Positions 24,740 to 52,675 of a DNA stretch of 64,000 nt are shown piece after piece (the first letter of the stretch is position 1; each line of letters begins with the position of its first letter). This DNA comes from Acanthornis magna. Taxonomy: Eukaryota; Chordata; Aves; Passeriformes; Acanthizidae. The stretch lies in the NCBI GenBank assembly GCA_036785705.1, contig JAWUZG010000029.1:17836501-17900500 (forward strand), read 5' to 3'. The notes beneath the pieces were generated by a model. The model saw nothing but the letters and a program-made list of their open reading frames with translations. It was not told the origin of the DNA and ran no database searches. A program made the position numbers and the translations under genes.

Positions 24740-25027
24740 AGTCTTAGAGCATGGGGTTTGTTGTGAAAAAGAGTGTGAGGGTGAGAGGCCTGCCAGGAGC
24801 TGCAAGATGCAGCCCGAAGCAAGTCACAGAGGTGAGAGAGAGAGAGAAGTACAGGATACAGGATATGGGAATGCAGGAAAGGGGGTAAGGATACCGTAGT
24901 TGCAGTTTGCAATACAATAAATCATATTCTGTGCTGAATATTCTAATTTTCACTAACCAATCTAGGACAAGATACAAATTCTATAGCATTTACATACAGC
25001 CTATGAGCATCCTTGTATTACCATGTG
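24740..25027 (-). repeat. LTR-like interspersed repeat (minus strand)
   Basis: On the minus strand, the part from 25027 down to about 24890 matches 46137-46260 nearly base for base. Shared words include GAATTTGTATCTTG, CTAGATTGGTTAGT and AAATTAGAATATTCA. A pyrimidine-rich section follows in both copies, including (GA)7 on the plus strand at 24834-24847. The 46-kb copy has an AATAAA signal in the expected place, so I read both as copies of one retroviral LTR. The match beyond 24890 is weaker and the ends are uncertain. Confidence 0.6.
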
Positions 25028-28114: not shown

Positions 28115-28119
28115 CTTTC

Positions 28120-29591
28120 TGTTGAAGGTTGAGGCGGGGGGAGTGGAATTTTTCCCATTCTGTTGCTAGGTAACTAATGACCGGTACTTAAGGGCCATCT
28201 GCTCTTACAAAAGAGACAAAGATTTTTGGCTAGGTTGAGCACAGGAACAAGAGATTGGGGGATTTGATAATGGAGGCACTGGCTAGCAGGTTTTTGGAGG
28301 AGAGAGCAGTGGGAAAAGGCAGCTGTCTGCTTTTTGGATGTGACTGCATAGGGGGCCTGTCTTTGCACTGTTTTTTCTCTGCCTGGTGGGTGATTTGTCC
28401 CAAGCAGGCCCAGAGACACTTCAGAGACAAAGTCAAAGAAGTGGGTATTTGCTTTATTCGGCGCCCGGGTCTGGGGGGATCGCTCCTCCAAACACACACA
28501 CCCCGGCACTTCCAACACACCATGTTATGGGTAAAATTCATGAAAATTCATCACATTCCCTGCAATAGGAGTGGTTATAAAAATCATTTCTTGGAAATCA
28601 TTAATATCATTAGCACGTGTGCCACCCATGCACTGTGTGTCCTGGTGGTCTTTGGGGGTCTTTTAATGATTAAGATCTGGTAGTCTTCATCACAATGCAC
28701 TTTTCACCTTTCTCTCTGGAGCATGTGCAGTCCTTGGTGGGATGATTCAGGGTTTCTGTACTGGCCTCAAACAGATTCTTGTCCCTCTTATCTTGACAAG
28801 ATTAAGGGACCTGGTATTTTTGAATTAGAATACACATACTCTGTCTCACAATAGTTAACTTGAGTTACCTATTGACTACCCGTTTCTCATGGGTGAGTTC
28901 TCACTTGGGGAAAGGGGGCACAGGATTCCGGCCCCTTCTACCCTCCGGGAGGGCGCATTTTCCCAGCTGCGCTGCAGCAGGGCGGGACCCGCCTGCCACC
29001 ACCCCCCGCCCTGCCTGCCGCCACCCCATGTCCTGCCTGTCGCCGCTCCACGCCCTGCCTGCCACAACTGTGGAGTTCTTGCCGCCTCCTCTGCTGGCTG
29101 GCACGGGTGGGCTGGCCCGGCCGCTCGATCTTCCTGCTTTGAGCTCCCGGCTGCGCCCCATCCATCTGCGCGCCACCCTGGTCCAGCCCATCTGCCATTA
29201 CGCATGTGAACACGGATCCAACCTTGCTCCACAGCGCCATCTGCAGCTGCGCAGGATCATTGCACCTGTCCTGCCGGTCTAGGAGCCCAACAGCGCCCCT
29301 GCTGGCTGTGATCATGACTGCACGAAACGGAAAGTGCCTGACAGCCCAGGGACATCTGCCACCAAGTTTTTTGTTTTGTTTACTGTTTTTTACCTTGTTT
29401 ACTGTTTTTGTTACTGATTGTTTACCTCATTCTAGATACTAGTAAAGAACTCTTATTCCTTTTCCCATACCTTTGCCTGAGAGCCCTTGAGTCCAAAGTT
29501 ACAATAATTCGGAGGGAAAGGGGTTCACATTCTCTGTTCTATGGAAGGTTCCCACCTTCCTTAGCAGATACCTGTCTATCAGAACAAGACA
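28120..29591 (+). repeat. Element A 5' LTR (LTR_A), with a nested LTR
   Basis: It starts TGTTGAAGG, ends AACAAGACA, and matches the solo LTR at 13654 and the minus-strand LTR at 49283. Its 1472-bp length is explained by a 496-bp insertion at 28394-28889; without it the LTR is about 976 bp. It is flanked on the left by CTTTC (28115-28119), which reappears beyond the minus-strand LTR_A at 49278-49282. A primer binding site follows it at 29597. It therefore is the 5' LTR of a provirus, not a solo LTR. The GC-rich repeats at about 28980-29065 are longer than in the solo copy. Confidence 0.92.
28394..28889 (-). repeat. Antisense solo LTR nested in the element A 5' LTR
   Basis: The 496-bp insert interrupts LTR_A; the other two copies read straight across this point. 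TGGGTGA occurs on both sides (28387-28393 and 28890-28896). Read on the minus strand it starts TGAGAAACGGG, has AATAAA (complement of 28453-28458) about 60 bp before its end, and ends GCTTGGGACA followed by AA. It has no coding content. It belongs to a family not otherwise seen in this window. The repeat length (7 bp by eye) suggests that the boundary is uncertain by one or two bases. Confidence 0.8.
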
Positions 29592-29596
29592 GATCT

Positions 29597-29614
29597 TGGT
29601 GCCCAATGTGAGGC
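29597..29614 (+). other. Primer binding site of element A
   Basis: TGGTGCCCAATGTGAGGC lies five bases after the end of LTR_A. It resembles primer sites complementary to the 3' end of a lysine tRNA (TGGCGCCCAACGTG type), with two differences that look like CpG transitions. The primer class is inferred from resemblance only. Confidence 0.75.
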
Positions 29615-29711
29615 TTGAGGGCATTGAGAGAAAAAAGGTGAAAAAGGAATAACAGTTTTTGAGAGACCCATTTTTAGTGTGCTGAACATAGAAACCTCAT
29701 TAAGCAGCACC

Positions 29712-31692
29712 ATGAGGTCTAGCATACCTTGGTTCGGCTGGCACATGCTCGTGGCCACGGTTTTCCCATTTGCAGCTCCCTATATAAACATGGGTCCTAT
29801 AACTAAGGCTATGGTGGTTGTTATCCAGTTCTCACAATGGGTCAATAAGGTGAGGAGTTCATGGATTTTTCGCGTCCTTTGAACGGCGGACACATGGTTA
29901 CACGGCTTTAACACCGTGAGTACATGTTTTTGGAGTCTGTTTGGTAATGGTACCTTTTGTGAGGAGATGACACCAGGGGGAGTTTTTTCTCAACCCTTCA
30001 CCCCTTTCTTTGGGCCTAACCTACCAGAGCTCGGAAGGTTCATATACTCTCTAAATGCTAATGACGTCGTATAGTGGTTGGCGTTGCTGATAGGTCTGCT
30101 CAACTTTGCATTCTGAGAAACGGGGAGACTGCCCTGGGTAACCACTCTAACAGCTGCCCCAGGGAATAAGAATGCCGCCCCAGAGACTAGGGATGTTGCC
30201 ACAGAGACTAGGGATGTTGCCACAGAAACGGGATGTTGCCACAGAAACTAGGGATGCTGCCACAGAGACTAGGGGTGCAGTTCCAGAGACTAGGGATGCT
30301 GCTACCGAGCCTGAGGTTGTCCCAGAGCCTGAGAGTACCCCCAAACCTGACCCTGTCCCTGAGCCTGACCCTGCCCCACGGCCTGACCCTGTCCAACAGC
30401 CTGCCCCAGAAATGAACCAACCAAATTGGATGGAGGTAATGGAGGAAAAGATGCATCAGGTGTTGAGGGAATACACTTCCTCAGCTGGTGGGAAACCCTC
30501 TCCTTGCCCCACAGGGGAAGAGTTGGATGGTACAGCAGAGGAATCCACGGACGTTACAACCATCCAGATTCCAGCTGGACCACAAGGGCAGTCACAGCCA
30601 GCAGCAGTTGCCCCTGTGCAGCGGAGGAAGTATAAGACCAAATCGGTATGCCCAGAACTGATGGGGAACCATGGACCTTCACAACCAGCAGGGGAGCCTA
30701 AGCCTATAATCATCACCGAGTCCCTACAGTACAAAACTATCCATAATCTGTGAAATGACATTGTGCGACGGGGGCGCGAGGCTTTCTCAACCTGGTTACT
30801 TCGGGTTTGGGACCTTATGGGCCCAGGTATGCAGCTAGATGGTGGTGAGGCCAGGAATTTGGGAGCCTTGGCCCAGGATGTAGGTGTTGACAAGGTGTTC
30901 ATGAGGGAGACAGGACCCCTTTCTCTCTGGGAAAGGCTTTTAATGAGTGTAAGAGAGGGGTTTGTTCACAAAGACAGAATGCAGGAGAACTACTGCAGAC
31001 TGCCCTGGAAGACTGTTGAGGAAGGGATCCAACGGCTGAGAGAAGTGGCAATGCTGGAGGTGCTTTTTGGGAGGGACGGACAGCACGAAAATGATCCTGA
31101 CAAGGTCAGGTGCACAAGGCAAATGTTGTGGAACCTGGCAAGTCTAGGGCCAACCCAATATGCCACCTACATTGCAACGATTAATGCCAATGACAACCGT
31201 GAGACAGTAAGCTCTGTAGCTGACAAGCTCAGGTATTACGCAAGTGTGATCAATGGCCCAATGTAGGCTCAGGTCTCTGCTGTGGTTAAGGAGTTGAAGG
31301 AGGAGATGAGGGAGATGAGGAAGGAGATGAGGGAGGAGATGGAGGAGATGAAGAAAAACAGTGTGGCACCAATGAAAGTCACAGGCCCTAACACCAGAGC
31401 CCGACATCCCCCAGCTAGAGAAAGAGGGTACACCCCACGAGCTGAGTTGTGGTTCTTTCTGCATGACCATGGGGAAGACAGTAAAAGGTGGGATGGGAAG
31501 CCCACTTCTGTCCTGGAAGCACAGGTGCATCAGCTTAAGGAGGACAACACTAGCTGAGGGAGTTCTGCCAAAACCAAGGTAGCCTCAGCTTCCCGTAGCC
31601 GACCTGCTGAGTACAACAGGAGGGAAGATGATGTGTCAGATTCCCTTGATGGAGGAATGTATGCCCAAGAAGGGAATGATAACCAGGGTTAG
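29712..31692 (+). pseudogene. gag: Element A gag (degenerate)
   Basis: The reading frame appears to start at the ATG at 29712 (context AGCACCATG) and stays in one register until a 2-bp loss inside a 21-bp tandem repeat near 30225. From there it runs in a second register through to the TAG at 31690-31692. In-frame stops lie at 29880, near 30073 and 30110, and at 30751, 31264 and 31555. The middle part (30600-31260) and the C-terminal part share blocks with element B gag, including RGYTPRAELWFFL and a KTKS motif. A charged, coiled-coil-like segment lies at about 31275-31350. I see no CCHC zinc knuckle. The N-terminal half differs from that of element B: here it is hydrophobic and then repeat- and proline-rich. 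Gag would form the particle core. This copy cannot be translated whole. Confidence 0.8.
30177..30305 (+). repeat. 21-bp tandem repeat in element A gag
   Basis: About six units of roughly GCCACAGAGACTAGGGATGTT encode a seven-residue period (ATETRDV and variants). The third unit is 19 bp long, which shifts the frame. The following 100 bp encode a Pro-Glu/Asp-rich run. Element B gag has no such repeat at the corresponding place. Confidence 0.9.
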
Positions 31693-31717
31693 AGGGGCCC
31701 TACCTCTAGCCAGGTAG
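31690..31717 (+). promoter_or_regulatory. Candidate gag-pro stop-readthrough signal, element A
   Basis: A TAG (31690-31692) ends gag, and pro follows in the same frame. After a 7-base spacer, CTACCT (31700-31705) and AGGTAG (31712-31717) form a perfect 6-bp stem with a 6-base loop. Element B has the same stop, spacer and stem at 35671-35698 with one G-U pair. Some retroviruses express pro-pol by reading through such a UAG. Function here is inference. Confidence 0.5.
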
Positions 31718-32130
31718 AGGCATGGGAAAACCGTGTCTTTTGGACTGTGTGGATTCGATGGCCTGGTACATCAGAGCCACAAAAATATGAAGCATTGGTT
31801 GATACAGGTGCGCAGTGTACCCTAATGCCATCGGGACATGTTGGGGCGGAGCCCATTTCTATTGCTGGGGTGACAGGGGGATCACAAGGGATGACTCTGG
31901 TGGAAGCCGAGGTGAGCTTGACTGGGAAGGAGTGGCAGAAACATCCCGTTGTGACTGGTCCAAAGGCCTCGTGTATTCTGGGCATAGATTTCCTCTGGAA
32001 TGGCTATTTCAAAGACCCGAAAAAACTCAGGTGGGCTTTTGGAATAGCTGCTGTTGAGGCAGAGGGCATTAGGCAATTGAACACCTTGCCTGGACTATCA
32101 GAGAACCCTTCTGCTGCTGGACTTTTGAAA
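31693..32130 (+). pseudogene. pro: Element A aspartic protease (pro)
   Basis: This follows the gag TAG in the same frame. It contains the retroviral aspartic protease active-site motif as VDTGAQCTLMPS (31798-31833) and further on GIDFLWNGYF, where a second conserved block of the family is expected. No stop lies within the domain, so this is the best preserved part of the element. The protease would cleave Gag-Pol. The lead-in from 31693 to about 31746 contains the candidate readthrough hairpin. It continues without a break into the reverse transcriptase. The boundary at 32130 is approximate. Confidence 0.85.
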
Positions 32131-33190
32131 GTGGAGGAACAACGGGTACCAATTGCTACCTCGACAGTGCACCACCGGCAGTATCGAATGAATCGAGATG
32201 CTGTAATTCCCATTCACAAAATGATCCGTGAGCTGGAGAGCCAAGGGGTGGTCAGCAAGGCCCACTCACCCTTCAACAGCCCCATCTGGCCTGTGCGCAG
32301 ATCTGATGGAGATTGGAGATTGTCTGTGGACTATTGTGCTTTGAATGAGGTGACTTCACCGCTGAGCGCTGCTGTGCCAGACATGCTGGAGCTCCAGTAT
32401 GACCTGGAGTCCAAGGCAGCAAAGTGGTACGCCACTATTGACATCGCGACTGCATTTTTCTCTATTCCTCTGGCAGCAGAGTGCAGGCCTCAGTTTGCTT
32501 TTACCTGGGGGGGCGTGCAGTACATCTGGAACTGATTGCCCCAGGGGTGGAAACACAGTCCCACCATCTGCCATGGACTGGTCCAGGCTGCACTGGAAAA
32601 GGGTGAGGCTCTGGAACATCTGCAGTACATCAATGACATCATTGTGTGGGGGGACACAGCAGAAGAAGTGTTCGAGAAAGGAGAGAAAATCATCCAGATT
32701 CTTCTGGAAACCAGTTTCACCATCAAAAGGAGCAAAGTCAAGAGGCCTGCCAGAGAGATCCAGTTCCTGGGGGTGAAGTGGCAAGATGGACGGTGTCAGA
32801 TTCCCACCGAGGTCATCAATAAGATCACAGCGATGTCCCCACCAACCAACAAGAAGGAGACACAAGCTTTCCTAGGCATCATAGGTTCCTGGAGGATACA
32901 CATCCCTGAGTGCAGCCAGATTGTCATCCCTCTTTACCTGGTGACATGGAAGAAGAATGATTTCCACTGGGGCCCTGAACAACAACAAGCCTTCGCCCAG
33001 ATCAAGCAAGAGATTGCTCATGCGGTAGCCCTTGGCCCAGTCGGGACAGGAGCAGAAATGAAGAATATGCTCTACTCTGCAGCTGGGGGCAATGGTCTGT
33101 CCTGGAGCCTTTGGGAGAAGGTGCCTGGCGAGACTCGGGGTCGTCCACTGGGATTCTGGAGCTGAAGTTACAGAGGGTCCGAATCCAAAA
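32131..33190 (+). pseudogene. pol: Element A reverse transcriptase, truncated by LTR_B
   Basis: It is in the same frame as pro. Conserved RT blocks are present: an SPFNSPIWPV block near 32270, WRLSVDY (about 32314), and IDIATAFFSIPLA (about 32440). The catalytic YxDD block near 32626 reads YIND, so the first aspartate is replaced. In-frame TGA stops lie at 32533 and 33163. The connection region follows to 33165, and 25 further bases continue in frame before LTR_B begins at 33191. The RNase H and integrase portions are missing here; they are found on the minus strand at 52057-50368. RT would copy the RNA genome into DNA. This copy is dead. Confidence 0.9.
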
Positions 33191-33804
33191 TGTCCTGGAG
33201 TGACAGCATGAAGCCACTATTCCTTAACTGTTTGCTTAATGTCCAGGGTGGCGGCACCTTTAAGGTGAGCCCAGGGGGTGGGGCTGGAGCTGTGGCAGTT
33301 CAACAGACCAGACGGGCTCGAGCAGCAGCTGACAACGGCTGGGTCCAATGGCCTGAGGGAGCCTGGGGAGAAGGTGCTGCGCTGGTGCTCTTCTGCTCTC
33401 CTGCTTTCCTGCCCTTCTGCCCTGTTGCTCTTCTGCCCTGCTCTCCCCCAAGTGCTTGAAGGACGTGTTTTTGCTGGTTTGGTTGTTTTTCCCTCCCTTG
33501 GTCTCACTGTCCCCTTACCCTCCTCTCCAGCCCCAGCGGGGGGCCTTTGGAGTGGCTCTGTTGGCCCCGGTCCCATCTTGGGGAAAACCTGCAGCCCCTA
33601 GCATGCACCCGTTTTTCCTTTTCCCCTCTCTGTTTTTTTTCTTTTGTGGCTGTTGTTTGTGTTAACCAATAGTTTAATTTTGTTGTGTTAATAAATATTT
33701 CCGGGTTTTTGTCACTTTCATTTGCTGCCTTTTCTTCTTCTCAAGAGGAGGTGCCCTATCCCAGAGTGCCTCCTCCTGAGACCTTTGGCTTCGAAACTGG
33801 GACA
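33191..33804 (+). repeat. LTR_B, 5' LTR of element B
   Basis: The 614-bp LTR starts TGTCCTGGAG and ends AACTGGGACA. It has a pyrimidine-rich repeat section at about 33388-33450 and an AATAAA signal at 33690-33695. It is closer to the minus-strand LTR_B at 52058-52675 than to the 3' LTR at 38992-39576: it shares with the former a 35-40-bp pyrimidine segment and a GGAGTGG block that the 3' LTR lacks. Confidence 0.93.
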
Positions 33805-33811
33805 AAGAATT

Positions 33812-33830
33812 TGGCGCCCAACGTGAGACA
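33812..33830 (+). other. Primer binding site of element B
   Basis: TGGCGCCCAACGTGAGACA lies seven bases after the LTR. Its first 14 bases match the lysine-tRNA type of primer site. It is better preserved than the element A site. Confidence 0.8.
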
Positions 33831-33887
33831 CATGAAAGTGAGAAAAAAACCCACTCTGTATTGAAGAAACAGCAATAGGAAGCCACC

Positions 33888-35673
33888 ATGCTGTTGGATA
33901 CAATAACTTTTTTCTGTAATCTGGCTATAAGCTTATGTCCACAGCTATTGACAGTCGGGTCCCTGGCTTATACCTTTTACAAGTCACTAATAAGAATCAG
34001 GTCCACCATCTTAATGTGCCTGATGTTACAGTTTTTTGGAGTGTAATGGATGTGATGGAAGTGATTGAGAATACATATGCTATGTTGGTTTCCCATTCTG
34101 GCCTGGGTAAGTTCCTTCTGGAATGTATCAGCAATTACACCCAGTTTGTTAGGGGAAAATCAGGGGATGATAGCTCCCAGCCCTTCATTTCCTTCTTCCC
34201 CTTCAGGTCTGGCCCATCACCTTTCCAAAATGTTCAATTCCCTCTGGATATCAAAGACACCATCTTTTTTTATCCTATCTATATGTAGTTTCCAGCTTGT
34301 CCAAACTAAGGGCTGAGATTTCCAGAGGGGTTGCACAGATACTTGCCCCAGTTAGGGAAAATCTTAAGTGATGTGGGGTATGGGAGGAAATAGACCAGAC
34401 CTTAAAGCAGTTTTCAGACCCAGTAGCTAGGGACTTCCCTGTTGACCAGATTAAGAATCCAGCCAAGGTAGGGAAGTACTTAAAGGAAAACTGCATTAAC
34501 AACACTGATGAAAAGAAGAGGCTCATTGCACTGTGTTGGGCCCTGGCTAATGCATATCGTGTGCTGCTCAATACCGTAGGGCAGGAGAACAAGTCTGTTA
34601 ACACCCCAGTCATTTCAGCTGGAGCGAAGACAGGTGGAGAGCCTAAACCAGTAACAGTCACCCCTGTCCAGAGAAGAAAGTGTAAGACCAAATCCATTTG
34701 CCCAGCGGATGATGAGGGGAAGCCAGGACCTTTGCATCCAACACCGGAATCTGAGCCAGAAATAATCACTGAGTCCCTCTCCATAGAAAGCCTTCATACA
34801 TTGAGAAAAGACTATACCTGGAGGCTTGATGAGATGATACTGAGTTGGCTGGTACGAATCTGGGATGCTGCAGGTGATGGTATGATTCTGGATGGCACTG
34901 AAGCGAGGCATTTGGGATCCCTGTCACGCGATTCAAGTGTTGATCAAGGGATGACAAGGGGGCCCGAAGCTCTCAGCCTCTGGACAAGACTCTTAAGAAG
35001 TGTGAAGGATAGATACCTCTGCTGAGAAGATCTCCAGCTGCAGCTAAACCCCTGGAAGACCACGGAGCAAGGGATTCAGTGCCTGAGAGAACTGGTGGTG
35101 ATAGAGATCATATTCTCAGAAGACCAGACTGTTAGGAGCCCTGACATGGTGAAATGTACACCTGTAATGTGGCTGAAACTTGCAAGACATGCACCACCAG
35201 AGTACACCCCTGCTCTTGCAATGATGTCATGGAATTACAGGGAAGAGACAGTGAGTGCCATGGTGAGGAGGCTCTGGGCATATGCAGACACTGTGCACGG
35301 ACCAACACACACCAGAATCGCAGTTGTGGAAAAGAATCTGTCTGAAACCATATAGAAGATGGAAGATAGGATGGAGAAGACTCACCAGAAACTCAGGAAG
35401 GAGTTGAAGGAGGGCTTTCTTCAAGTGACATTAGTACAGACCAGAGGCCCTATTACTAGAAGCAGACGTCCTGCAGCTAGAGAGAGAGGATACACCCCAA
35501 GAGCTGAACTATGGTTCTTCCTGTGTGACCATGGGGAAGACATGAGGAGGTGGGATGGAAAACCAACTTCTGTCCTCGCAGCACGGGTGCGTGAATTGAA
35601 AGATGGTAATGCTCAGAGAGGGAGTTCCACCAGAAGGGAAGTAGCTCGAGTTTCAAATGACAACCAGAATTAG
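33888..35673 (+). pseudogene. gag: Element B gag (degenerate)
   Basis: The ATG at 33888 has a strong context (GCCACCATG) and opens a hydrophobic frame that stops after about 52 codons. The recognisable gag part runs from about 34285 to the TAG at 35671-35673 in one register. It has stops near 34368, at 35023 and at 35353. Shared blocks with element A gag include RRKCKTKS near 34670, a tryptophan-rich block near 34840, and RGYTPRAELWFFL near 35490. The segment 34380-34600 encodes a helical, charged stretch with no counterpart in element A. No zinc knuckle is seen. The product would be the particle core. The copy is inactive. Confidence 0.8.
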
Positions 35674-35698
35674 AGGAGCCCTGCCTCTAGCCAGGTAG
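35671..35698 (+). promoter_or_regulatory. Candidate gag-pro stop-readthrough signal, element B
   Basis: The TAG is followed by a 7-base spacer and a stem CTGCCT (35681-35686) / AGGTAG (35693-35698) with loop CTAGCC. One A-U pair of element A is a G-U pair here. An alternative overlapping stem, GCCTCT/AGAGGC, is also possible. The position matches element A exactly. Confidence 0.5.
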
Positions 35699-36130
35699 AG
35701 GCCAGGGAAAATCGTGTCTTTTGGACGTCTGATGGCCTGGCACATCAGAACCACAAAAATACAGAGCTTTGGTTGACACGGGTGCACAGTGCACCTTGAT
35801 CCCATCAAGACACATGGGGGCAGAACCAGTTTCTGTTTCTGGAGTGACGGGGGGATCTCAGCAGTTGACCCTGCTGGAGGCCAAGGTGAGCCTAACTGGA
35901 AACAAGTGGAAGAAACATCTTATTGTGACTGGTCCAGAAGCCCCGTGTATTCTGGGTATAGACTTCCTCCGGAGAGGGTATTTCAAAGACCCAAAAGGAC
36001 TCAGGTGGGCCTTTGGAATAGCTGCTGTGGAGGCAGAGGGCATTAGGCAATTGAACACCTTGCCTGGACTGTCTGAAAATCCTTCTGCAGTTGGGCTTCT
36101 GAAGGGAGAAGAGCAGCGAGTGCCGATTGC
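35674..36130 (+). pseudogene. pro: Element B aspartic protease (pro), frameshifted at its start
   Basis: A loss of about 7 bp near 35729 relative to element A moves the protease out of the gag frame. From 35769 the domain is open, with the motif VDTGAQCTLIPS at its start and a GIDFLRRGYF block near 35960. The domain then runs into RT without a break until a TGA at 36168. The catalytic Asp-Thr-Gly is intact, but the frameshift separates it from gag. Confidence 0.85.
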
Positions 36131-37139
36131 TACCTTGACAGTGCACCGCCGGCAGTACTGGACAAACTGAGATGCTGTGATTCCCATTCACAAGATGATC
36201 CGTGAGCTGGAGAGTCAAGGGGTGGTGAGCAAAACCCACTCACCCTTCAACAGCCCCATCTGGCCTGTGCGCAAGTCTGAAGGGGAATGGAGTTTGACAG
36301 TGGACTATCAAGCCTTGAATGAGGTGACTCCACCGCTGAGCGCTGCTGTGCCAGACATGCTGGAGCTCCAGTATGACCTGGAGTCCAAGGCAGCAAAGTG
36401 GTACGCCACTATTGACATCGCGACTGCATTTTTCTCTATTCCTCTGGCAGCAGAGTGCAGGCCTCAGTTTGCTTTTACCTGGGGGGGCGTGCAGTACGTC
36501 TGGAACTGATTGCCCCAGGGGTGGAAACACAGTCCCACCATCTGCCATGGACTGGTCCAGGCTGCACTGGAAAAGGGTGAGGCCCCAGAACATCTCCAGT
36601 ACATCAATGATATCATCGTGTGGGGGAACACAGCATCGGACGTATTTGGAAAAGGAAAGGAGATCATCCAGATTCTCCTGGAAGCTGGCTTTGCCATAAA
36701 AAAGACCAAAGTCAAGGGACCTGCCAGAGAGATCCAGTTCCTGGGGGTGAAGTGGCAAGATGGACGGCACCAGATTCCCATGGAGGTCATCAATAAGATC
36801 ACTGTGATGTCCCCACCAACCAACAAAAAGGAAACCCAAGCTTTCCTAGGTGCCATAGGCTTTTGAAGGATGCATATACCTGAGTATAGTCAAATTGTGA
36901 GTCCGCTCTACCAGGTTACCCGCAAGAAGAACGATTTCCACTGGGGCCCTGAACAACAACAAGCCTTCACCCTGATCAAACAGGAAATTGCTCATGCAAT
37001 AGCCCTTGGCCCAGTTAGGACAGGAGCAGAGGTGAAAAACATGCTCTACTCTGCAGCCGGGAACAATGGCTTGTCCTGGAGCCTTTGGCAGAAGGTGCCT
37101 GGGGAGACTCAGGGTCATCCACTGGGATTCTGGAGCTGA
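36131..37139 (+). pseudogene. pol: Element B reverse transcriptase (degenerate)
   Basis: This is homologous to element A 32131-33165 at a constant offset of 3974 bp. In-frame TGA stops lie at 36168, 36507, 36864 and 37137; those at 36507 and 37137 are shared with element A. The catalytic block reads YIND (36600-36611), as in A. A 253-bp section (36331-36583) differs from A at one base only, whereas the neighbouring sequence differs at roughly 15 percent of positions by eye. The protein is dead through both stops and the catalytic substitution. Confidence 0.9.
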
Positions 37140-37960
37140 AGTTACAGAGGGTCCAAAGACAACTACACTCCAACAGAAAAGGAAATTCTGGCAGCCCATG
37201 AAGGAATCCAAGCCGCCTCAGAGGTCATTGGCACTGAATCACAACTCCTCCTGGCACCCCGACTACCTTTGCTGGGGTGGATGTTCAAAGCAAAGGTACC
37301 CTCTACCCACCATGCCACCGATGCCACATGGAGTAAATGGATTGCCCTCATAACACAACGTGCCCGTATTGGAAACCCGAACTGCCCTGGGATTTTAGAA
37401 ATAATCACGAATTGGCCTGAAGGTGAAAACTTTGGTCTCACTGATGAAGAAGAACAAGAGCAAGTGGACACATGCTGAGGAGGCTCCACCATACAACCAA
37501 CTGCCATCAGAAGAAACACGTTATGCTCTTTCCACTGATGGTTCCTGTCGCATCGTAGGGATGAACCGGAAGTGGAAAGCAGCTGTATGGAGCCCCACAC
37601 AACAGGTTGCAGCAGCCACTGAGGGAGAAGGTGGATCAAGCTAACTGGCTGAACTCAAAGCCATCCAGTTGGCCCTGGACATTGCAGAGAGAGAGAAGTG
37701 GCCAAAGCTATACCTGTACACCGGTTCATGGATGGTAGACAATGCTCTGTGGGGGTGGCTGGAGAGGTGGAAAAAGGCCAGCTGGAAGCGTAAGGGAAAA
37801 CCAATCTGGGCTGCTGAGGAGTGGAAAGACATCGCCACTCTGGTAGAGAAGATACCCGTAAAAGTCCATCACGCAGATGCCCATGTCCCCAAGAATCGGG
37901 CTAATGAGGAACACCAAAACAATGAACACGTAGATCAGGCTGCAAAGATAGAGGTGTCGA
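37140..37960 (+). pseudogene. pol: Element B RNase H (degenerate)
   Basis: It starts with a YTPTEKE block near 37162 that is typical of the RT-RNase H tether. A frameshift near 37470 moves it to another register, and a TAA lies at 37642. The RNase H acidic residues can be followed: Asp in TDGSC (about 37537), Glu in ELKAIQLAL (about 37653), then the third site, where the codon at 37723 gives Gly in TGSW; the minus-strand copy has Asp there. The C-terminal Asp lies in HVDQAA near 37930. RNase H would remove RNA from RNA-DNA hybrids. This copy lacks a catalytic residue. Confidence 0.85.
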
Positions 37961-38849
37961 AGGTCGATCTGGACCGGCAGCACAAGGGAGAATTGTTCCT
38001 AGCTCGATGGGCCCATGATGCCTCAGGCCATCAGGGCAGAGATACCACCTATAAGTGGGCACGAGACCGAGGAGTGGATCTGACTATGGACAGCATCTCC
38101 CAGGTGATCCACGATTGTGAGACGTGCGCTGCCATCAAGCAAGCCAAACAGGTAAAGTCCCTATGGTATGGTGGGAGGTGGTCCAAATACAAGTATGGGG
38201 AGGCCTGGCAGATTGACTATATCACACTGCCTCAGACCTGCCAAGGCAAGCGCTACATTCTCACAATGGTAGAAGCCACCACTGGATGGTTGGAAACCTA
38301 CCCTATGCCTCATGCCACTGTCCATAACACCATCTTGGGCCTTGAAGAGCAGGTCCTTTGGAGGCATGGTACACCCGAGAGAATTGAGTCTGACAATGGG
38401 ACTCATTCAAGAATAGCCTTATAAACACCTGGGCTAGGGAACATGGTATTGAATGGGTGTACCATATCCCTTATCATGCACCAGCAGCGGGGAAAGTGGA
38501 ACAGTGCAATGGCCTGCTCAAAACCACCTTGAAGGCACTGTGTGGGGGAACTTTTAAAAACTGGGAGAGGCACTTAGCTAAGACAACATGGCTAGTTAAC
38601 ACCCGAGGCTCCACCAACCGAGCAGGCCCTGCCCACTCCGAACTTCTGCAGACAGTATATGGAGACAAGGTCCCAGCAGTGCATGCCTGGGCACTTTTGG
38701 GGAAGACTCTGCATCAAGTAAAGACAAACCCATCCGCGGGGTTGTCTTTGCTCAGGGTCCAGGGCTGTACCTGGTGGATTATGCAGAGAGACGGAGAGAC
38801 ATGTTGCATACCCCAAGGAGAGTTGATGTTGGGTGAAAACCCCTTGTGA
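37961..38849 (+). pseudogene. pol: Element B integrase (frameshifted)
   Basis: The HHCC zinc-binding domain is visible (WAHDASGHQG near 38008, then CETCAA near 38117). The core follows with Asp in WQIDY (about 38210) and Asp in ESDNGTH (about 38390). A 1-bp loss near 38406 shifts the frame. The third catalytic residue, Glu in GKVEQCNG, follows near 38497 in the new frame. The frame ends at 38847-38849. A local double shift disturbs the C-terminal domain near 38710-38760. Integrase joins the DNA copy to the host chromosome. The residues are present, but the frame is broken. Confidence 0.9.
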
Positions 38850-38991
38850 TGTTGCAATAACTGTATCTGTATGTATTGAATGTTGTTGCCACTGTTGTAT
38901 ATAATTGTGTATATATGTATATATGTTGGTGTTTAGAGTTGGAATGTATAGATTTGGGTATTAAGCTGACAGTAAGGAACAAGGGGTGGAA
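38850..38991 (+). other. Element B 3' noncoding tract and polypurine tract
   Basis: About 140 AT-rich bases with TATA-type runs (38899-38930) separate the integrase stop from the LTR. The polypurine tract AAGGAACAAGGGGTGGAA ends at 38991, directly before LTR_B. No env gene is present. Confidence 0.85.
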
Positions 38992-42500: not shown

Positions 42501-45500
42501 ACTCTCTCTTCTCAAATTCTTATGGGAAGGAATAATGAGAAGCCAAATATTTCAACAGTTACAGCCTTCCATTTCTGATCTATTTATTCCATCATCAGAA
42601 GTGTCTTGATAATGTGACAAACTTGATTCCCTTTGCCCATATAATCTCAAAATGAACTGCTGCAAACAAAAGTCTGGGGTGTAAAGGGACATGGGTTACT
42701 TCAATCAGTAAGACCTAGAAGCACAGAGCTTCTACCACCACATTCAGAGTGCAGGAAGCCTGAAAGGCCCCGGTCTTTGTCAGAACCTTTACATGAAATG
42801 CCACAGCTCATCCCCAGCAGTGACACATTAGACACCAGGCTTCTGCACAAGCCCTCCCCTGGACTGACGAGCATGGAAACCACACTGTGGAAAGGCTCTC
42901 TCTGAATCATCATAAAACAAAATATATACAGCCTTCTTGAAAATGGGAATGGGATTGTGGGCTCCATACCACTGCATTAAGTGAAGAATTGATAGAGACC
43001 TGAACAGGCAACAGCTTTTGAGGCTCTGCTCTAGTTTATGCCTGAATAAATCTGGATGCAGGTTTGTTCCCTACAGCAGCTCAAGTGAATTTTGCCCACT
43101 CACTGCCTACAGAAGGTGTACCAACACGAAAGAGCCACAAGTAATCTACTTTGACAAGAGCTGCTGTAACGAGTCACAAGTTCTTATCACACCTTTGAGC
43201 CACACCATTAGCTCCAGGATACACTGTTTTCAGAGCAGTAAAATGCAGCCTGCCCCTCTGCAGTCTTAGCTATCTTTCAGAAATAGAGGATGCTTCCCAT
43301 CCCTTTCTGGAAAGATGATTATTTTAGAAACTCTGTTTAGACCTCCTCATAGTCAACTACATGAGTAAGATGTGCAATCTGTAAAACTGACACTGCACCT
43401 CCCTTGGATACATCTATACTTACAGTAGGTAGGTATTCTGTTGAACTGACAATAAAAAGCAATGTGTGGTGCTCTAACTCTTTGGACTGTTCCTGTAGAA
43501 ACTCAGCTCCAGCTTCTTGTTAGATGAGGCACATCTTGACTTTGATGGAATTGGCATTGCATGCTTTTGAATGGCATTAACTAGCTGAAGAACAATATTT
43601 TGTCATTGCAACATAATTTACAAAGAGTTTGTGTGTTGCTTTGGTTTGGATTTTTTTTTTTTAAATCCTGTCAAATCATGGTACATTAAGCCAAGACACT
43701 GCTTTTCAACTATTACTAGTGTTTTTGAATGCTCTCTGTGAGGACTTCAAAGGATCCGATACACTGATAGAAAAATACAGAAGCCTAAAACAGAAGTAAT
43801 CTGGGAGGACCACCCACCATCTTAATCACTTGGTGATGATACATCATATGATTTCCTTCTTTAGACAACTTTTATTCTTATCATTCAGCTTTACTGCTAT
43901 ATATTACTGATAGCTTTGCAATGCTACTCCATTGCCTCTAACAAGTCTTGCAGATATCTCTGTAACCACACTGCTGGTACTAAAAAAATCATTCCTCTAA
44001 TTTAGCTGCATAGAAAGGTGGGATTAGGCAGTTTCTTTGTTGACATCACATACAGAGCTTGGGTGGAAAAGTGTGGTTTAGATAATTAGATCAAATTCTC
44101 ACAACCATTAGCCTACCATTACCTTACATTACCTATGGCAAATTTGTAGCAGCTAAGGACCAGCCCAATGAATTTAAACAAAACATTTAATTAACCTGGG
44201 ATAAATTCATAGACCTACATTCCACCACTGATTAAAAATATGTAGCAGCAGCTAACTGTTGTGTTTAATGAGCATAAAAATGCAAGGTTAAATAAGCACA
44301 TTGGTTTGACTACCATTTTGTCACTCATTACATCAATCTTGTTTCATTTCTGATGATGTCTAAATAGATGCAGCCCCAAAAGCATTGTTTTCTGGAGGAG
44401 CAGTACAACTATGCAAACCAGTGACCTTTTTTGTGGCTTTCACAGCAATGACAGTAGCTGTGAGCTTCCCTGTCTTTTTTTTCTTAGTTGGTCAAGAACT
44501 CTAATTCAGCTTTTAAGTACAAGAGGTTGATTAATAAAAAGAGAGGGTTTTCATGGACATTTATGCAATTGGTTCCTGGAACTTTATGCCAGAAGTTGTT
44601 TCATGTGAAAGGAAAAGTGATTTAGTCTGACATTTGCTGTCATGAGGGGGAACTAAGTAATGGGAAAGACTGCTTCAGATATCATTTTTGCAGGAAGTCT
44701 TGTCTTTTCCTAGCATGTAGAGGGACTTAATGACCAGACCAAGCAGAATAGAAAGCCCCTTTTTGGGGCAGGAACAGACAGCTTCTTTCTCTACAACATG
44801 AACACAGCATAACGAGAATTTAAACTGCTCCTTACAAAAACAAAATCCCTTCAAGTTTATTTCTCCACCCTCCCAGGTGCATTTTCCTGTCCTAGGAATA
44901 ACTTCCTTCATTTTAAACATCAAAATAATAATGTAAATTTACAGAGGAGCGGCTATTTAGAACAGCAATGATGGGGAATGACTAGACTGACCCAGTCATG
45001 TGAGGAAAAGAAAGGGAGCTGCCAATACTATCAGAGGAAAAAGGAAATTTCAAAATTTCAAATTTCAAAACCAGGAGAAATTTGGTAAGGTAAGAAACCT
45101 TAGCAAGAAATCTAGACAATTCACATAGAAATCTACTGTGACAGTCTGTGCGTTTTGGAGCAGTTCTGCAATTGGTTTATTAATGGAATTAATTATCATT
45201 ATTAGCCAAGGATCCGTCCTTTTGCGTTCTTTATTTACATGGAAGGATATAAAGGAAGGGGATTTCAGTTTAGATGGAGACTGTGAATGCATAATCTGCA
45301 TACACAGCATTAGAGGTGATGCAAATCAAATCAATTTTCTAGAACAATTTCATTTGTAAGTGACACTTGAAAAGAAAAACCCCAAACTTCTTCAGGAGGT
45401 GGTTTGTATTATCAGAAGAAATACTTGAAAAATATGTATCCCATTTGTACATGAGGGTTTCTAGATCTCACACTTTTGCTGAAATAATTCCTACTGCATC

Positions 45501-46127
45501 TCTAGGCGAGTGGTCCACTGCAGCTTCTTCCACTGGTAGAAGCTATTCTACATGTCTGGCATCACCCAGGCATGCTGGGAGCCCATTTGTGCTGTTAAGA
45601 TCCTGAGGACAGTCAGACTGGGTCAAACCTCTACCTGTGTCCTGTTTTTCCAGCAGTGGCAGATGCTCAGCATGGCCACAGATAACAGCTTGCTGTGAGG
45701 CCTAGAGGAAGTATCTTCCACTGCTTTCCCTGTGCCCTGATAATCATGTTACCTCCCCTATCTCCCATCACTTTATCGTGCTACCCTTCCCCATGTTTTT
45801 ACTTCTCCCAACAGATTTCTTTTAATTTCTCTCTGGAAGTTAGCAAGAGTGGTATAGGGGGTTCTTTCTCCCCATTACCTGCCTCTTAATACTCGTGCTT
45901 AGGTGTTGGGGAAGAAGAAATAGGAAGGTCTTATGGAAATTATTGCCTGGCAAAAGATGCTCAGAATATTGAAACCTCAAGAGAGATCGAGATGAAGACA
46001 AGTTTTGAAGTACCAACCAGTGAATAGCTGGAGGGAAGGCATTCCAACCCAATGGTGCCACAATAGAAAGATACATTCCTCTGAGGTGGATCCAAAACCT
46101 GAAGAACCGGTTTCTAGAATTTAAATA
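39577..46127. other. Non-viral sequence inside the inferred inversion
   Basis: No gene was recognised. It contains an AT microsatellite at about 41061-41083 and a short TTTCAAAA-type tandem at about 45048-45070. The AT-rich part at 44000-44350 has composition and motif density like conserved non-coding elements, but I cannot test conservation. In the inversion model this whole segment is reversed relative to the ancestral order. Confidence 0.5.
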
Positions 46128-46443
46128 TGTAACAGCTATGGTAATACAGGGACTCTCATAGGCTATATGTAGATGATGTAGAATTTGTATCTTGACCTAG
46201 ATTGGTTAGTAGAAATTAGAATATTCAACATAGAATGTGATTTATGTGGTTGCAAGAGTCAGTTTCGCTCTCTCGCAACTTCCTCCCTGTACCTGCCTGA
46301 CTCCCTCTCCCCTGACCTGCCACGGGGCAACCACATGGTCGGTCTCCCTCTTCCTAACCTCTCTCAAAATAAACTAGCACGCTTTGAAACTGTATCCAGA
46401 GGACTCTGTCTAAACCGTCTGTTACCGCAGAGATATCCACAGC
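46128..46443 (+). repeat. LTR-like interspersed repeat (plus strand)
   Basis: It is related to the minus-strand copy at 24740-25027 (shared GAATTTGTATCTTG and AGATTGGTTAGT words). It begins near TGTAACAGC, has a pyrimidine-rich centre, an AATAAA signal at 46368-46373, and may end at TATCCACA near 46443. No target duplication is evident. It is probably an old solo LTR of an avian retrovirus family. Confidence 0.65.
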
Positions 46444-47651
46444 AGCACCAAGACCCTCCATCCACACTTAGGGAAAAATTAAAAGAAACATGTCAAATAC
46501 AGAGCAATCCCTTCCCTAGTGTGTTCCCGAGGGAGTAAAGAGTTGAAGGACTTCTGGAGATAAAACACATATCTGTCTTGACACTATTATGTTCAATATC
46601 TGCAGCTGGCCTTTTACTCTTTTTCCTTGGTCTTTCTGTACTTCTGGACTCTATAACATCCTCTGCTAATGAGTTCTGCCGCTTCCCTATGCCCTCCCTG
46701 GAAAAGTATTTTTCTTTTTGAAGCCACTCTCCAACAGAAGAGGCTGATGATCAGATATTCACTACTGACTCTCCAACCCATCTAAAACTTTCTTCTAAAA
46801 TTTTCTTCTTCTAAAACCTGACTAAAACTTTCTTCAGCTTGAGGGAAAATCGAAGATTTTCAAATTGTACCTCCCTTGAATCAAAACAATCCTGCAGCAG
46901 GATATTCTGAGGAGACTTCCCCCCACCTTTTTCAACAACTGTCTCCTCAGAGGAATAGTGAGATCTGCCCACAGCCTGTGGGCATACCACAGTTTATCTA
47001 ATGGCATGAGGACATTTGCTGGATTGGCTCACAACTCCTTTCCTACAGATTTCTAACACTTCATTTGATTTTTGTAACCACTCCTGACACTCCCAGAGAA
47101 GTCTCCAGAGTAATACCTGAGCCGTAATTACTGGGATCTTACTTTTCTTGCATTATATACACTATAGGGATTTCTTGCTCTTACCCATTATCTTTCCTAT
47201 CCCAATAAGTCAAATATTGACAGCTATCAGTATTTTTATGCCTGATCATAATCCCCAGCCTGTTTACCTTCAAACCACTGTACTCTACTGTGGTGTCATT
47301 TTGGTGTACCATCATAGCATAGGAGGAACCATGAAAAGGGGGCTCAGTAGGAGCTCCAGCTTCCACTGCAAGCTGAGTCTGAGTTGCTGCCACTGTGCAG
47401 CATAGGTAAGCCAGACAGACAAGAAGGCTAATATCCTTTCAGACTGCTTTCAGCTGCTCTGAGTAGTACCAGTTCCTTGTCCATCTTCCATCAATAGTGC
47501 TGAAGGCAGCTTAAAATAATTCCATTTACAAAGCAGGTGGACTATTCATGTTGTCAGTCAAGACTACATGTGCAGAGCTGTGCCTCTACATAGATTGTAG
47601 CATGTCATCTTCTGCATAACAGGCCATGGGACTTCACTGAATTTTTTCATG
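46444..47651. other. Unique sequence, nothing recognised
   Basis: A degenerate CTAAAACTTTCTT-type repetition is visible at about 46782-46835. No gene could be supported. Confidence 0.45.
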
Positions 47652-48080
47652 CTCATAAAATCTTTAAGGGTGGAAAAGACCTTTAAGATCATCAAATCCA
47701 ACTCTCATTCCAGCACCACCATGTTCACCATTAAACCACGACAAGTACCATATCCACATGTTTTTTTAGCAATTCCAGGTATAGTGGCTCCATAGCTTCC
47801 CTGAGCAGTCTATTCCAATGCTTTACAATCCTTTCCATGAAAAAAATTTTCCTAATATCCAATCTAAACCTCTCTGGTGCAACTTGACACCATTTCCTCT
47901 CATCTTGTCACTTGTTACCTGGGAGAAAAGACTGACAGCCAACTTGCTACAACCTCCTTTCAGGAACTTGCAGAAAGTGATAAGGTCTCTCCTGAGCCTT
48001 CTTTTCTCCAGGCTAAACAACCCCAGTTCCCTCAGCCACTCTTTGTCAGACTCCAGCCCCTTCACAGCTTTGTTACCCTT
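47652..48080 (-). repeat. CR1 LINE fragment (minus strand in the present orientation)
   Basis: The plus strand reads through reverse-complement CR1 3'-end blocks in order: CATAAAATCTTTAAGG, GACCTTTAAGATCATC, CCTAATATCCAATCTAAACC, and TCTCCAGGCTAAACAACCCC, ending near CACAGCTTTGTTACCCTTCT. It is more diverged than the CR1 at 19763 and is 5'-truncated. Confidence 0.92.
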
Positions 48081-49277
48081 CTATTCAAATTAGAGTTTAA
48101 TCCTTCAGACAAGCATTCTTGCCTGGCTTAACAACGCCAAACAGATTTCACAACAGGTTAGTATCAATATTCAGAATCAGAATTCATGTAGCTTTACTGT
48201 TACTGCTGACATTTCTTACGGTCCTTTTTGCTAGACATGAATCCTCTAAATCTAGTTTTGGTCCCCTGATAACCTTTGCTAATCTCAAGAGGCAAAGTTC
48301 CAAGACTCTCACTATAAATCTTAACTTTCTAGCCCTTCTGTCACTCTCATTGCTCTTTTCCCATCTCCTGGTTTCTCAGCATCCTTTGGAAGGACATCCT
48401 ATATTTTGACATGCTTGAATGGCAGAACCACCCTTGCCAACACAGCAGCTGCTCTGGCCTCACTGAGAAATCCTTGAAAAACAGGGGTCAAAGAAAAAAG
48501 CAGAAGCTCTTGTAATAACAGCAGCCAGAGCTTGCATTCAGCTTATCGAACTTTCCTCATACCCTGCACAGCACCTGTTCTTGGGTCTCCACTACTTTCA
48601 TCAGTTTGTTGAGACAGGTCCCCTGGTCAGCACCTGCTCTCTCAGGTTGGATCAGGGTCATCTAATCCAATAACCACCCTTTGATGACTGGTAACTGATT
48701 CCTGCCAAGAAGTCAGAGACCCTGGCAGGAACACAGCCATACCTTCCTAGGATAATCTCTTCACTTCCACCAACTTCCACTTTAGAGGCTGCCAGAGCCA
48801 GTGCCTTCTCCTGCCATCTCTGATGAACTACATGGCCAAGAGGCCAAGTTTTACCTTTTTCACTGGACAAATCCAGATTTTTATTTTCCTCATTTTAAGA
48901 CTAATTTACATACCTCTAAGTGACGTTTTAAGCAATAAGAAGAAATTAATACATATACTCTAGAGTGATATAGCAAAAATAAAAAAAAAAAATTAAATTC
49001 TCTTGAGGACAACTCTGCAGCCTTCAAAAAGCAGTTAGATTAACCACAGGAGAACAATCTTCGTAAGAGTGCTACTAAATATGATTAAGTTGCCAATTTC
49101 TTCTAATACAAGTCTTACCGTTTAGAAAGACTACTTCAAAATGTAGCAAAACTTGAACTGGATTTACTATGTAAATTATATTGAAGCATCTGAATAAGCT
49201 TTGGATGTTTCAGCATTACATTCCCTTCAGTCTTGGACATATATGAAGTCCTAAAGTGGTCCAGTGCTAGGGATAAA
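48081..49277. other. Unique sequence flanking element A (inverted side)
   Basis: No gene was recognised. The last five bases before the LTR (49278-49282, GAAAG) are the complement of the element A target duplication. Confidence 0.5.
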
Positions 49278-49282
49278 GAAAG

Positions 49283-50231
49283 TGTCTTGGTTTGATAGAA
49301 GGAAGAAAGGTGCTAAGGAAGGTGGGAACCTTCCTTAGAACAGAGAATGTGAACCCCCTTCCCTCTGAATTATTATAACTTTGGAATCAAGGGCTCTCAG
49401 GCAATGATATGGGAAAAGGAATAAGAGTTCTTTACTAGTATCTAGAATGAGGTAAACAATCAGTAACAAAAACAGTAAACAAGGTTAAAAAACAGTAAAC
49501 AAAACCAAAAACTCGGTGGTAAATGTCCCTGGGCTGCCAGGCACTTTCCCGTTTGGTGCAGTCACGATCACAGTCAGCAGGGGCGCTGTTGGGCTCCTAG
49601 ACCGGCAGGACAGGTGCAATGACTCCCGGAAAGCTGCAGATGGTGTTGTGGCACGAGGTTGGATCCCTGTCATGCGCATAATGGCAGACGGGCTGGACCA
49701 GGGTGGCGCGCAGATGGATGGGGCGCAGCCGGGAGCTCAAAGCCGGAATATGGAGCGGCCAGGTCAGCCCACCCGTGCCAGCCAGCAGAGGAGGCGGCAA
49801 GAACTCCACAGTTGTGGCAGGCAGGGCGTGGGGCGGCGGCAGGCAGGGCGCGGGGCAGCGGCAGGCGGGTCCCGCCCTGCTGCAGCGCAGCTGGGAAAAT
49901 GCGCCCTCCTGGAGGGTAGAAGGGGCTGGAATTCCATGCCCCCTCTCCCCAAGCGAGAACTCACCCACCAGGCAGAGAAAAACTAGTGCAAAGACAGGCT
50001 TCCTCCACAGTCACAGCCAAAAAGCAGTCAGCCACCTTTTCCCACTGCTCTCTCCTCCAAAAACCTGCAAGCCAGTGCCTCTGTTATCAAATCCCCCAGT
50101 CTATTGTTCCCGTGCTTCGCCTAGCCAAACGTCTTTGTTTCTTTTGTAAGACTAGATGGCCCTTAAGTACCGGTCGTTAGTTACCTAGCAACAGAGTGGG
50201 AAAAATTCCACTCCCCCCTCAACCTTCAACA
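49283..50231 (-). repeat. Element A 3' LTR (LTR_A), now inverted
   Basis: On the minus strand it starts TGTTGAAGG at 50231 and ends CCAAGACA at 49283, 949 bp in all. Upstream of it (in its own orientation) lie a polypurine tract and integrase, so it is a 3' LTR. The bases after it, read in its own orientation, are CTTTC, which equals the five bases before the plus-strand LTR_A at 28120. It carries the same 10-bp stem (49313-49338) and TGTTTAC motifs as the other copies. Confidence 0.95.
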
Positions 50232-50367
50232 TTATCCACCCCAAATTTTTTCCATTCCAACATATTACATTGAACTTAGAGTTTTAAACTATATACATAC
50301 ATGCATTACTCTGATTATATACATATATACATACAGCTATAGATACAGGCACAGTGTTATGGGCAGT
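50232..50367 (-). other. Polypurine tract and 3' noncoding tract of element A (inverted half)
   Basis: Read on the minus strand, AAAAAATTTGGGGTGGATAA ends at 50232, immediately before the LTR. The rest of the tract is AT-rich with TATA-type runs, as in element B. No env gene is present. Confidence 0.8.
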
Positions 50368-51270
50368 TCAACCCCAACTGAGGTCCCCCTGAGGTATGCA
50401 TCGTGTCTCTCCATCCTCTTGCATCACCCACCAGGTGCACCCTGGTCCCTCAGTGAAGACAACCCCATGGGTGGGTCTATCTTTGCTCAAGGCAGAATTA
50501 ATCCAAACAGTTTTTCCCAGCATGCCTCTCATTTGCACCACTGGAACCTTATCCCCATCTGCTATTTGCAAGGCTTCAGATCGGGGAGGGCCAGCCCTGT
50601 TGGTGGAGCTTCAGGTGTTAACTAGCCAGGTGGCCTTGGCTAAATGCTGTTCCCAATTTTTGAAAGTCCCCCCACCTAGAGCCTTCAAGGTGGTTTTTAG
50701 CAGGCCACTGCATCGCCCCACTTTACCAGCAGCAGGTGCGTGATAAGGAATGTGGTACACCCACTCAATGGCATGTTCCCTAGCCCAGGTGTTTATGAGG
50801 CTATTTTTGAAATGAGTCCCGTTGTCTGACTCAATTCTCTCAGGCGTACCATGCCTCCAAAGGACTTGCCTTTCAAGGTCCAGGATGGTGTTACGGGCAG
50901 TGGCGTGAGGCACAGGGTAGATCTCCAGCCACCCAGTGGTGGCTTCTACCACTGTGAATACGTAGCGGTTGCCGTGGCAGGTTTGAGGGAGTGTGATGTA
51001 ATCGATCTGCCAGGCCTCCCCATACTTATATTTGGACCACCTTCCCCCACACCACAGGGGTTTCACCCGCTTGGCTTGCTTGATGGCAGCACACATCTCA
51101 CAGTTATGGATCACCTGGGAGATACAGTCCATGGTCAGATCCACCCCTCGGTCTCGTGCCCACTTATAGGTGGCATCTCTGCCCTGATGGCCTGAGGCAT
51201 CATGGGCCCATCGAGCAAGGAACAACTCTCCCTTGTGCTGCCAATCTAAATCTACCTGTGACACCTTTAT
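50368..51270 (-). pseudogene. pol: Element A integrase (inverted half)
   Basis: This is one open register on the minus strand apart from a TGA at 50611-50613, where element B has a CGA codon. The HHCC domain (WAHDASGHQG, then CEMCAA) and the core aspartates (WQIDY, ESDNGTHF) are present. The third catalytic residue is altered: element B has Glu in GKVEQCNG, and here the motif reads GKVGRCSG. The C-terminal domain is better preserved than in B and ends at the TAG at 50368-50370. Integrase would insert viral DNA into chromosomes. This copy lacks a catalytic residue. Confidence 0.9.
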
Positions 51271-52057
51271 CTTTGCAGCCTGATCCACCTGTTTGTTGTT
51301 TCGGTGTTCCTCATTAGCTTGACTCTTGGGGACATGGGCATCCACATGGCGGACTTTCACAGGTAGCTTCTCTACCTGAGTGGCAATGTCTCGCCACTCG
51401 TCTGCAGACCAGGTTGGTCTTCCTCTACGTTGCCAGTTAGCCTTTTTCCTCCTTTCCAACCAACCCCACAGAGCATTGGCTACCGTCCATGAATCAGTTT
51501 ACAGGTATAGCTTTGGCCACTTCTCTCTTTCAGCAATGTCCAGGGCCAGCTGAACAGCTTTGAGTTCGGCAAGTTGGCTTGATCCACCTTCTCCTTCTGT
51601 AGCCTCTGCGACCGGCCGTGTGGGGCTCCATACAGCTGCTTTCCATTTTCGGTTTGCCCCCACAATGTGACAGGAACCATCAGTGAAGAGAGAGTAGCGT
51701 GTTTCATCTTGTGGCAGTTGGTTGTACGGTGGAGCTTCCTCTGTGCGAGTCACCTGTTCCTGCTCCTCTTCGTCAGTGAGACCAAAGTTTTCACTTTTGG
51801 GCCAATTTGTAATTATTTCTAAGATCCCAGGGCAATTTAGGTTTCCAATATGGGCGCGCTGTGTGATTAGGGCAATCCATTTACTCCACATGGCGTTGGT
51901 GGCTTGGTGGGTAGAGGGAACCTTTCCCTTGAACATCCACCCCAGCACCGGTAGTCAGGGTGCGAGGAGAAGTTGTGCTTCCGTGCCAATAACTTCTGAG
52001 GCAGCTTGGACACCTTCATAGGCTGCCAGAAATTCCTTCTCTGTGGGAGTGTAGTTG
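51271..52057 (-). pseudogene. pol: Element A RNase H (inverted half), starting at LTR_B
   Basis: The register begins directly at the end of LTR_B with a NYTPTEKE block, which is the sequence expected just after the point where the plus-strand half of element A stops at 33190. In-frame stops are a TGA at 51955-51957 and a TAA at 51499-51501. Acidic positions can be followed in TDGSC, ELKAVQLAL and TDSW, all intact here. The upstream part of pol (RT, protease, gag) is absent on this strand, which fits a split element. Confidence 0.9.
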
Positions 52058-52675
52058 TGTCCTGGTTTCAGAGACAAGGGTCTGAGGAGGAGGCACTCTG
52101 GGATAGGGCACCTCCTCCCGAGAGGAAGAAAAGGCAGCAAATGAAAGTGACAAAAAATCGGAAATATTTAGTAACACAAAGAAATTAAACTGTTGGTTAA
52201 CACAAACAACAGCCATGAAAGAAAAAAAAAAAACAGAGATGGGAAAAGGAAAAAAGGGTGAGTGCTAGGGGCTGCAGGTTTTCCCCAAGATGGGACCGGG
52301 GCCCACTGGGGCCACTCCACGGGCCCCCCCCGTGGCTGGAGAGGAGAGGAAGGGGACAGTGAGACCAAGGGAGGGAAAAACAACCAAACCAGAAAAACAC
52401 GTCCTTCAAGCACTTGGGGGAGAGCAGGGCAGAAGAGCAACAGGGCAGAAGGGCAGGAAAGCAGGAGAGCAGAAGAGCACCAGCGCAGCACCTTCTCCTC
52501 AGGCTCTCTCGGGCCGTTGGACCCAGCCGTTATCGGCTGCTGCTCGAGCCCGTCTGGTCTGTTGAACTGCCACAGCTCCGGCCCCACCCCCCCCGGCTCA
52601 CCTTAAAGGTGCCGCCACCCTGGACATTAAGCAAACAGTTAAGGAATAGTGGCTTCATGCTGTCACTCCAGGACA
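52058..52675 (-). repeat. LTR_B at the right inversion breakpoint (minus strand)
   Basis: This 618-bp LTR starts TGTCCTGGAG at 52675 and ends CCAGGACA at 52058. No element B internal sequence adjoins it. One side is element A pol and the other is non-viral sequence. It shares the pyrimidine-rich segment and the GGAGTGG block with the LTR at 33191, making these two the likely original LTR pair of element B. The polyadenylation site reads ACTAAA. Confidence 0.93.

Follow-up and report, generated by a model that had tools for sequence, protein, structure and literature searches.

Probable inversion between two long terminal repeats splitting a provirus of Acanthornis magna

Results

A 64,000-nucleotide stretch of the genome of the bird Acanthornis magna (C29:17836501-17900500, on a 19.1-Mb contig), here called the window, was analysed together with searches of the genome itself (1,482 Mb in 1,515 contigs). 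It carries two oppositely oriented halves of an endogenous retrovirus (ERV), element A, and a second provirus with a different long terminal repeat (LTR), element B, which lies within A. The features are given in Table 1, where A5 and A3 are the 5' and 3' LTRs of A, whereas B5, B39 and B52 are the three LTR_B copies of the window. A preliminary description of the sequence had proposed that A is one provirus cut by an LTR-mediated inversion of about 12.5 kb; the target repeat of A, a 5-bp overlap at the break, the sister LTR_A copies and the ancestry of LTR_B across the breakpoints all support this proposal.

Table 1. Coordinates of the parts of elements A and B in the window
Feature	Position	Strand	Observation
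Left target-site repeat of A, CTTTC	28115-28119	+	5/5 against the complement of 49278-49282
5' LTR of A (A5)	28120-29591	+	Sister of A3, support 100/99, 22 rows
5' part of A	29592-33190	+	Pfam: reverse transcriptase piece above cut-off, protease below
Target repeat of B within A, left side, CAAAA	33186-33190	+	Homologous to B 37160-37164; 3/5 against CAACT
5' LTR of B (B5)	33191-33804	+	Best other match of B52, 43 rows
Internal region of B	33805-38991	+	Primer-site-like stretch at start, purine stretch at end
LTR_B now at the 3' end of B (B39)	38992-39576	+	Start probably from B, bulk probably from a former solo LTR_B
Host stretch, probably reversed	39577-49282	.	Reversal deduced from the proviral anatomy
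Right target repeat of A	49278-49282	-	Complement is CTTTC
3' LTR of A (A3)	49283-50231	-	Sister of A5
3' part of A	50232-52057	-	Integrase and RNase H pieces
Inverted LTR_B (B52)	52058-52675	-	Bulk probably the original 3' LTR of B; outer start near 52675 probably from the former solo LTR

As the preliminary description had noted, the outer ends of A bear the same 5-bp repeat, and among the six boundary pairings tested every other one reached at most 3/5. A5 and A3 were identical at 862 of 943 aligned positions (91.4%). When the genome was searched with A3 (2264 first-look candidates and 40 scored rows, A5 not being among the latter), the best of the 39 other scored rows had 88% identity, and A5 and A3 were sisters in a maximum-likelihood tree containing both of them and 20 of these 39 rows, including a further LTR_A of the window. 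Taken together with the overlap at the break, the sister LTRs and the exact target repeat support the view that the two halves of A belong to one provirus. A5 owes its length of 1472 bp to some 490-500 nt of apparently foreign sequence (about 28390-28889), with TGGGTGA at either side; A3 has no such insert.

Pfam searches of the plus half gave one reverse transcriptase (RT) piece above the curated cut-off, with a second RT piece and a protease match below it, and in the minus half the integrase core was above the cut-off and the RNase H and zinc-binding domain matches were below it. The contents of the halves were complementary when compared with the internal region of B (RT and protease on the left, RNase H and integrase on the right), as had been proposed, whereas for the gag attributed earlier to the plus half no family was found in the Pfam search.

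We found that 33191-39576 is a whole B-type provirus inside A, a point absent from the earlier account. The end of the left part of A and the start of its right part were compared with the internal region of B, and at offset 0 the match was 53/60 on each side, against 9-19/60 at each of the other eight offsets between -4 and +4. Position 33190 aligned to B 37164 and position 52057 to B 37160, giving a 5-bp overlap, and the target repeat of the LTR_B family is also of 5 bp. CAACT, the complement of 52053-52057, is homologous to B 37160-37164, like CAAAA at the left break. The single matching offset and the overlap therefore indicate that B integrated into the pol of A, at one integration site that is now interrupted. 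The three bases CAA, reported previously on both sides of the break, are only the identical part of this overlap, which as a whole comprises five homologous bp (CAAAA/CAACT). Both break ends adjoin LTR_B boundaries, the left part of A stopping one base before B5 and the right part starting one base before B52 on the map, and the sequence that once followed the right LTR of B is now 12.5 kb away and reversed.

Homologous repeats in opposite orientation, B39 and B52, are present at both junctions, which agrees with what had been claimed for the proposed breakpoints, and the markers beside each junction (split element, target repeats and LTR kinship) pair with the other junction. The first 25 nt of LTR_B, with up to 3 mismatches allowed, had three matches in the window and none in 100 shuffles.

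In an unmoved provirus, B5 and B39 would be expected to be the paired LTRs. When B52 was used to search the genome (43 match rows), however, the best other row was B5 (92%), and B39 was 19th of 43 (76%), a low rank due to a large extent to indels. Without gaps, B5 and B52 had 92.7% identity and each was the closest row to the other. They were also sisters (support 100/98) in a tree of 40 rows, made of the three window copies and 37 others, which are all the other loci of that search. B5 and B52 had 15 family-minority states in common at which B39 differs, as against one for B5 and B39 and none for B39 and B52, and they also had in common a 5-nt stretch which, position by position, 33-35 of the 37 other copies lack. 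As a control, the two LTRs of another B-type provirus (C401, rows L024 and L013), which has TGGGT at both sides, were sisters with support 100/99. These results are new evidence that B5 is probably sister to the distant, inverted B52 and not to the LTR now found at the 3' end of B itself. The Kimura two-parameter distances (0.092 for A5/A3 and 0.081 for B5/B52) were in the expected order, by a small margin.

A three-copy clock likelihood stood 4.3 log units above a star tree, which is weak taken alone, and for this reason the genome copies of LTR_B were fetched. On a fixed backbone, the grouping of B5 with B39 was worse by a delta lnL (log-likelihood) of 39.2 (Kishino-Hasegawa p 0.0002), although such a comparison is biased towards the starting tree. 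In 5000 column bootstraps, B52 was the row nearest to B5 in 4317 and nearer to it than B39 in 4677, and B5 was the row nearest to B52 in 3864 and nearer to it than B39 in 4768.

Assignment of both elements to a class was based on the pol of A and on the target repeats. A target-site duplication of 5 bp is the length typical of ERVL elements, which are further recognised by a pol close to those of foamy viruses and ERVL and by a tRNA-Leu primer site. Among the best 120 of 672 matches of the A integrase piece, the named relatives were from birds, such as Hirundo, Turdus, Columba, Grus, Manacus and Apus, the best row being from Hirundo (87% identity). Against solved structures, the four best of 12 matches were named prototype foamy virus (PFV) integrase (best E 2.5e-13), in a comparison limited to this one integrase piece. 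Exact 5-bp target repeats (5/5) were found for A and for 7 of 20 fetched LTR_A copies and 7 of 37 fetched LTR_B copies. The foamy virus relatives and the 5-bp target repeats therefore suggest that A and B are ERVL-like elements. We keep to "ERVL-like" and do not file them as ERV-L, because the primer-site-like stretch after LTR_B, TGGCGCCCAACGTG, presumably is tRNA-Lys-like.

Discussion

The arrangement is very probably explained by an inversion of 39577-52057 through the 3' LTR of B and an inverted solo LTR_B, which would have split A. According to this explanation, the ERVL-like provirus A would have inserted at CTTTC in plus orientation. The related provirus B, with its different LTR, would then have entered the pol of A in the same orientation and duplicated 5 bp there, and an oppositely oriented solo LTR_B would have lain about 12.5 kb downstream. 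Non-allelic homologous recombination between this copy and the 3' LTR of B, near the LTR start, would have flipped the segment of 12,481 bp. The 3' part of A, including its 3' LTR, would thereby have been reversed together with 9.7 kb of host DNA, and a hybrid LTR_B would have formed at both junctions. Such a place of exchange is compatible with the uncommon states that B5 and B52 share from position 89 onwards and with the identity of all three LTR_B copies over their first 61 nt. The reversal of the host stretch is inferred from proviral anatomy within one genome.

Several observations weigh against this explanation. No direct trace of the exchange can be seen: by likelihood it may lie anywhere in columns 0-175, with the best at 0, and no site shows the reciprocal hybrid half, the LTR start being nearly invariant. 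The identical tract of 61 nt is short compared with the minimal efficient segment of 300-500 bp given for humans in PMC4195946; the LTR_B copies may have been more alike at the time of the exchange than today. B39 is not a distant copy, since without gaps it has 90.7% identity to B5 and 90.4% to B52 and is their third to fourth closest neighbour. Free-backbone approximately unbiased (AU) tests failed to reject the grouping of B5 with B39 (p 0.0998, 0.183, 0.155 and 0.248), which we attribute to shifts of a poorly resolved backbone. Copies from separate contigs (L017 and L023) were paired at 100/99 in the LTR_B tree, and the LTR_A tree also joined copies of different loci with bootstrap values of at least 99 (L068/L074, L066/L070 and L061/L062), so sisterhood alone does not prove that two LTRs come from one provirus. 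Finally, the LTR_B target repeats across the inversion match only at 3/5 (CAAAA/CAACT and ATTCA/CTTCC). When the 37 fetched copies were surveyed, with 9 provirus LTRs and 10 unclear or partial ends set aside, 16 of the 18 clear single copies had at least 3/5 and two had 1/5. The pairings now present (CAAAA/CTTCC and ATTCA/CAACT, 1/5 each) are therefore unusual for the family, and the re-paired repeats are within its decayed range, which is not strong evidence.

Other origins of the same arrangement were considered. If instead a solo LTR_B had been in A, and the whole of B farther downstream in reverse, an exchange through the 5' LTR of B would have flipped 33805-52057 (about 18.3 kb) and produced an identical order of parts, with the same target-site pairings and the same reversed host stretch. 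This seems very improbable, because it predicts that B39 is sister to B5 or B52 on one side of the crossover, whereas B39 has 1 minority state in common with B5 and 0 with B52, against 15 for B5 and B52, and because the crossover model was no better than the star in the three-copy likelihood. The initial tract common to the three LTR_B copies could have favoured an assembly error at these repeats, the real chromosome having B inside an uninterrupted A; nevertheless, numerous substitutions, together with indels of 5, 32, 24 and 36 nt, distinguish the copies, the long contig has no N in the window, and 39577-40500 has a single genome match, which is itself, and we regard such an error as very unlikely.

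Two independent A elements, both broken and oppositely oriented, with no inversion, are conceivable in a family as numerous as that of A, in which well-supported sister pairs between unlinked loci occur, but the exact outer target repeat and the complementary 5-bp overlap at the break make this highly improbable. Gene conversion, described among the LTRs of human ERVs (PMC4921805), could have overwritten the 3' LTR of B, in which case LTR kinship would be silent on the inversion. It leaves the split of A and its target repeats unexplained, being possible only as an addition, and as an explanation of the locus it is extremely unlikely. If the inversion through the 3' LTR of B took place, the remaining inverted LTR_B pair could recombine again, but it is unlikely that the 12.5-kb segment is a recurrent, polymorphic flip.

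ERV-mediated ectopic recombination was reportedly described by Hughes and Coffin in 2001 and 2005 for human ERVs (HERVs). HERV-mediated recombination is already in print in PMC4195946, where homologous ERV sequence is present at both junctions, as here. The events treated there are deletions and duplications, and the paired HERVs are at least 94% identical over at least 2 kb, whereas here the LTRs measure about 600 bp, their ungapped identity is about 90% and the product would be a 12.5-kb inversion. The use of LTR kinship within an element as a recombination test follows the same logic as in PMC2672092, and solo LTRs in birds are treated in PMC11009239 and HERV-K in PMC3625200. TguERVL2 of zebra finch and cordon-bleu (PMC6523648) has TG...CA ends like the elements described here, and there too the length of the target repeat classifies; in contrast, no family name is assigned here and the primer-site-like stretch resembles tRNA-Lys use. 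The same source presents LTR elements at inversion breakpoints of finches as an association, whereas here one event is deduced from its own anatomy. The locus documents a new instance of a process already known; the literature was searched generally and not for the locus, and we do not claim that it is unpublished.

Target repeats, a nested insertion and LTR kinship can suffice as internal markers for inferring a small inversion, and the mechanism likely behind it, from one genome with no aligned relative. With the help of such cases one may ask how frequently recombination between LTRs yields inversions besides solo LTRs in birds, and on how little shared sequence.

Additional features of the window and of the LTR_B family

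No tRNA genes were found in the window, nor any Rfam match at gathering scores. Searches of viral contigs gave no match to the LTR_B pattern and two matches to relatives by pattern, neither of which was confirmed. The 136 stop-free stretches of at least 70 residues outside the elements were listed for exons that could show orientation; the only ones recognised were pieces which we take to be CR1-like.

The third LTR_A copy of the window (13654-14599, plus strand) appears to be a solo LTR, and its target repeat has decayed to 3/5 (CTGGG/CCAGG). Two dispersed repeat pieces, 24917-25331 and 45903-46245, are mutually inverted and have 82-88% identity.

Nine of the 43 LTR_B rows, three of them in the window, were within 1.84 Mb of the same contig (17.08-18.92 Mb), an unusually LTR_B-rich stretch. 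On C53, about 16 kb separates two oppositely oriented LTR_B copies (L044 and L045) that are identical and have short flanks in common, perhaps an inverted duplication. Three others, also identical and with the same short flanks (L018, L019 and L020), were found on C334 and, twice, on C141, suggesting recent segmental duplication or assembly redundancy.

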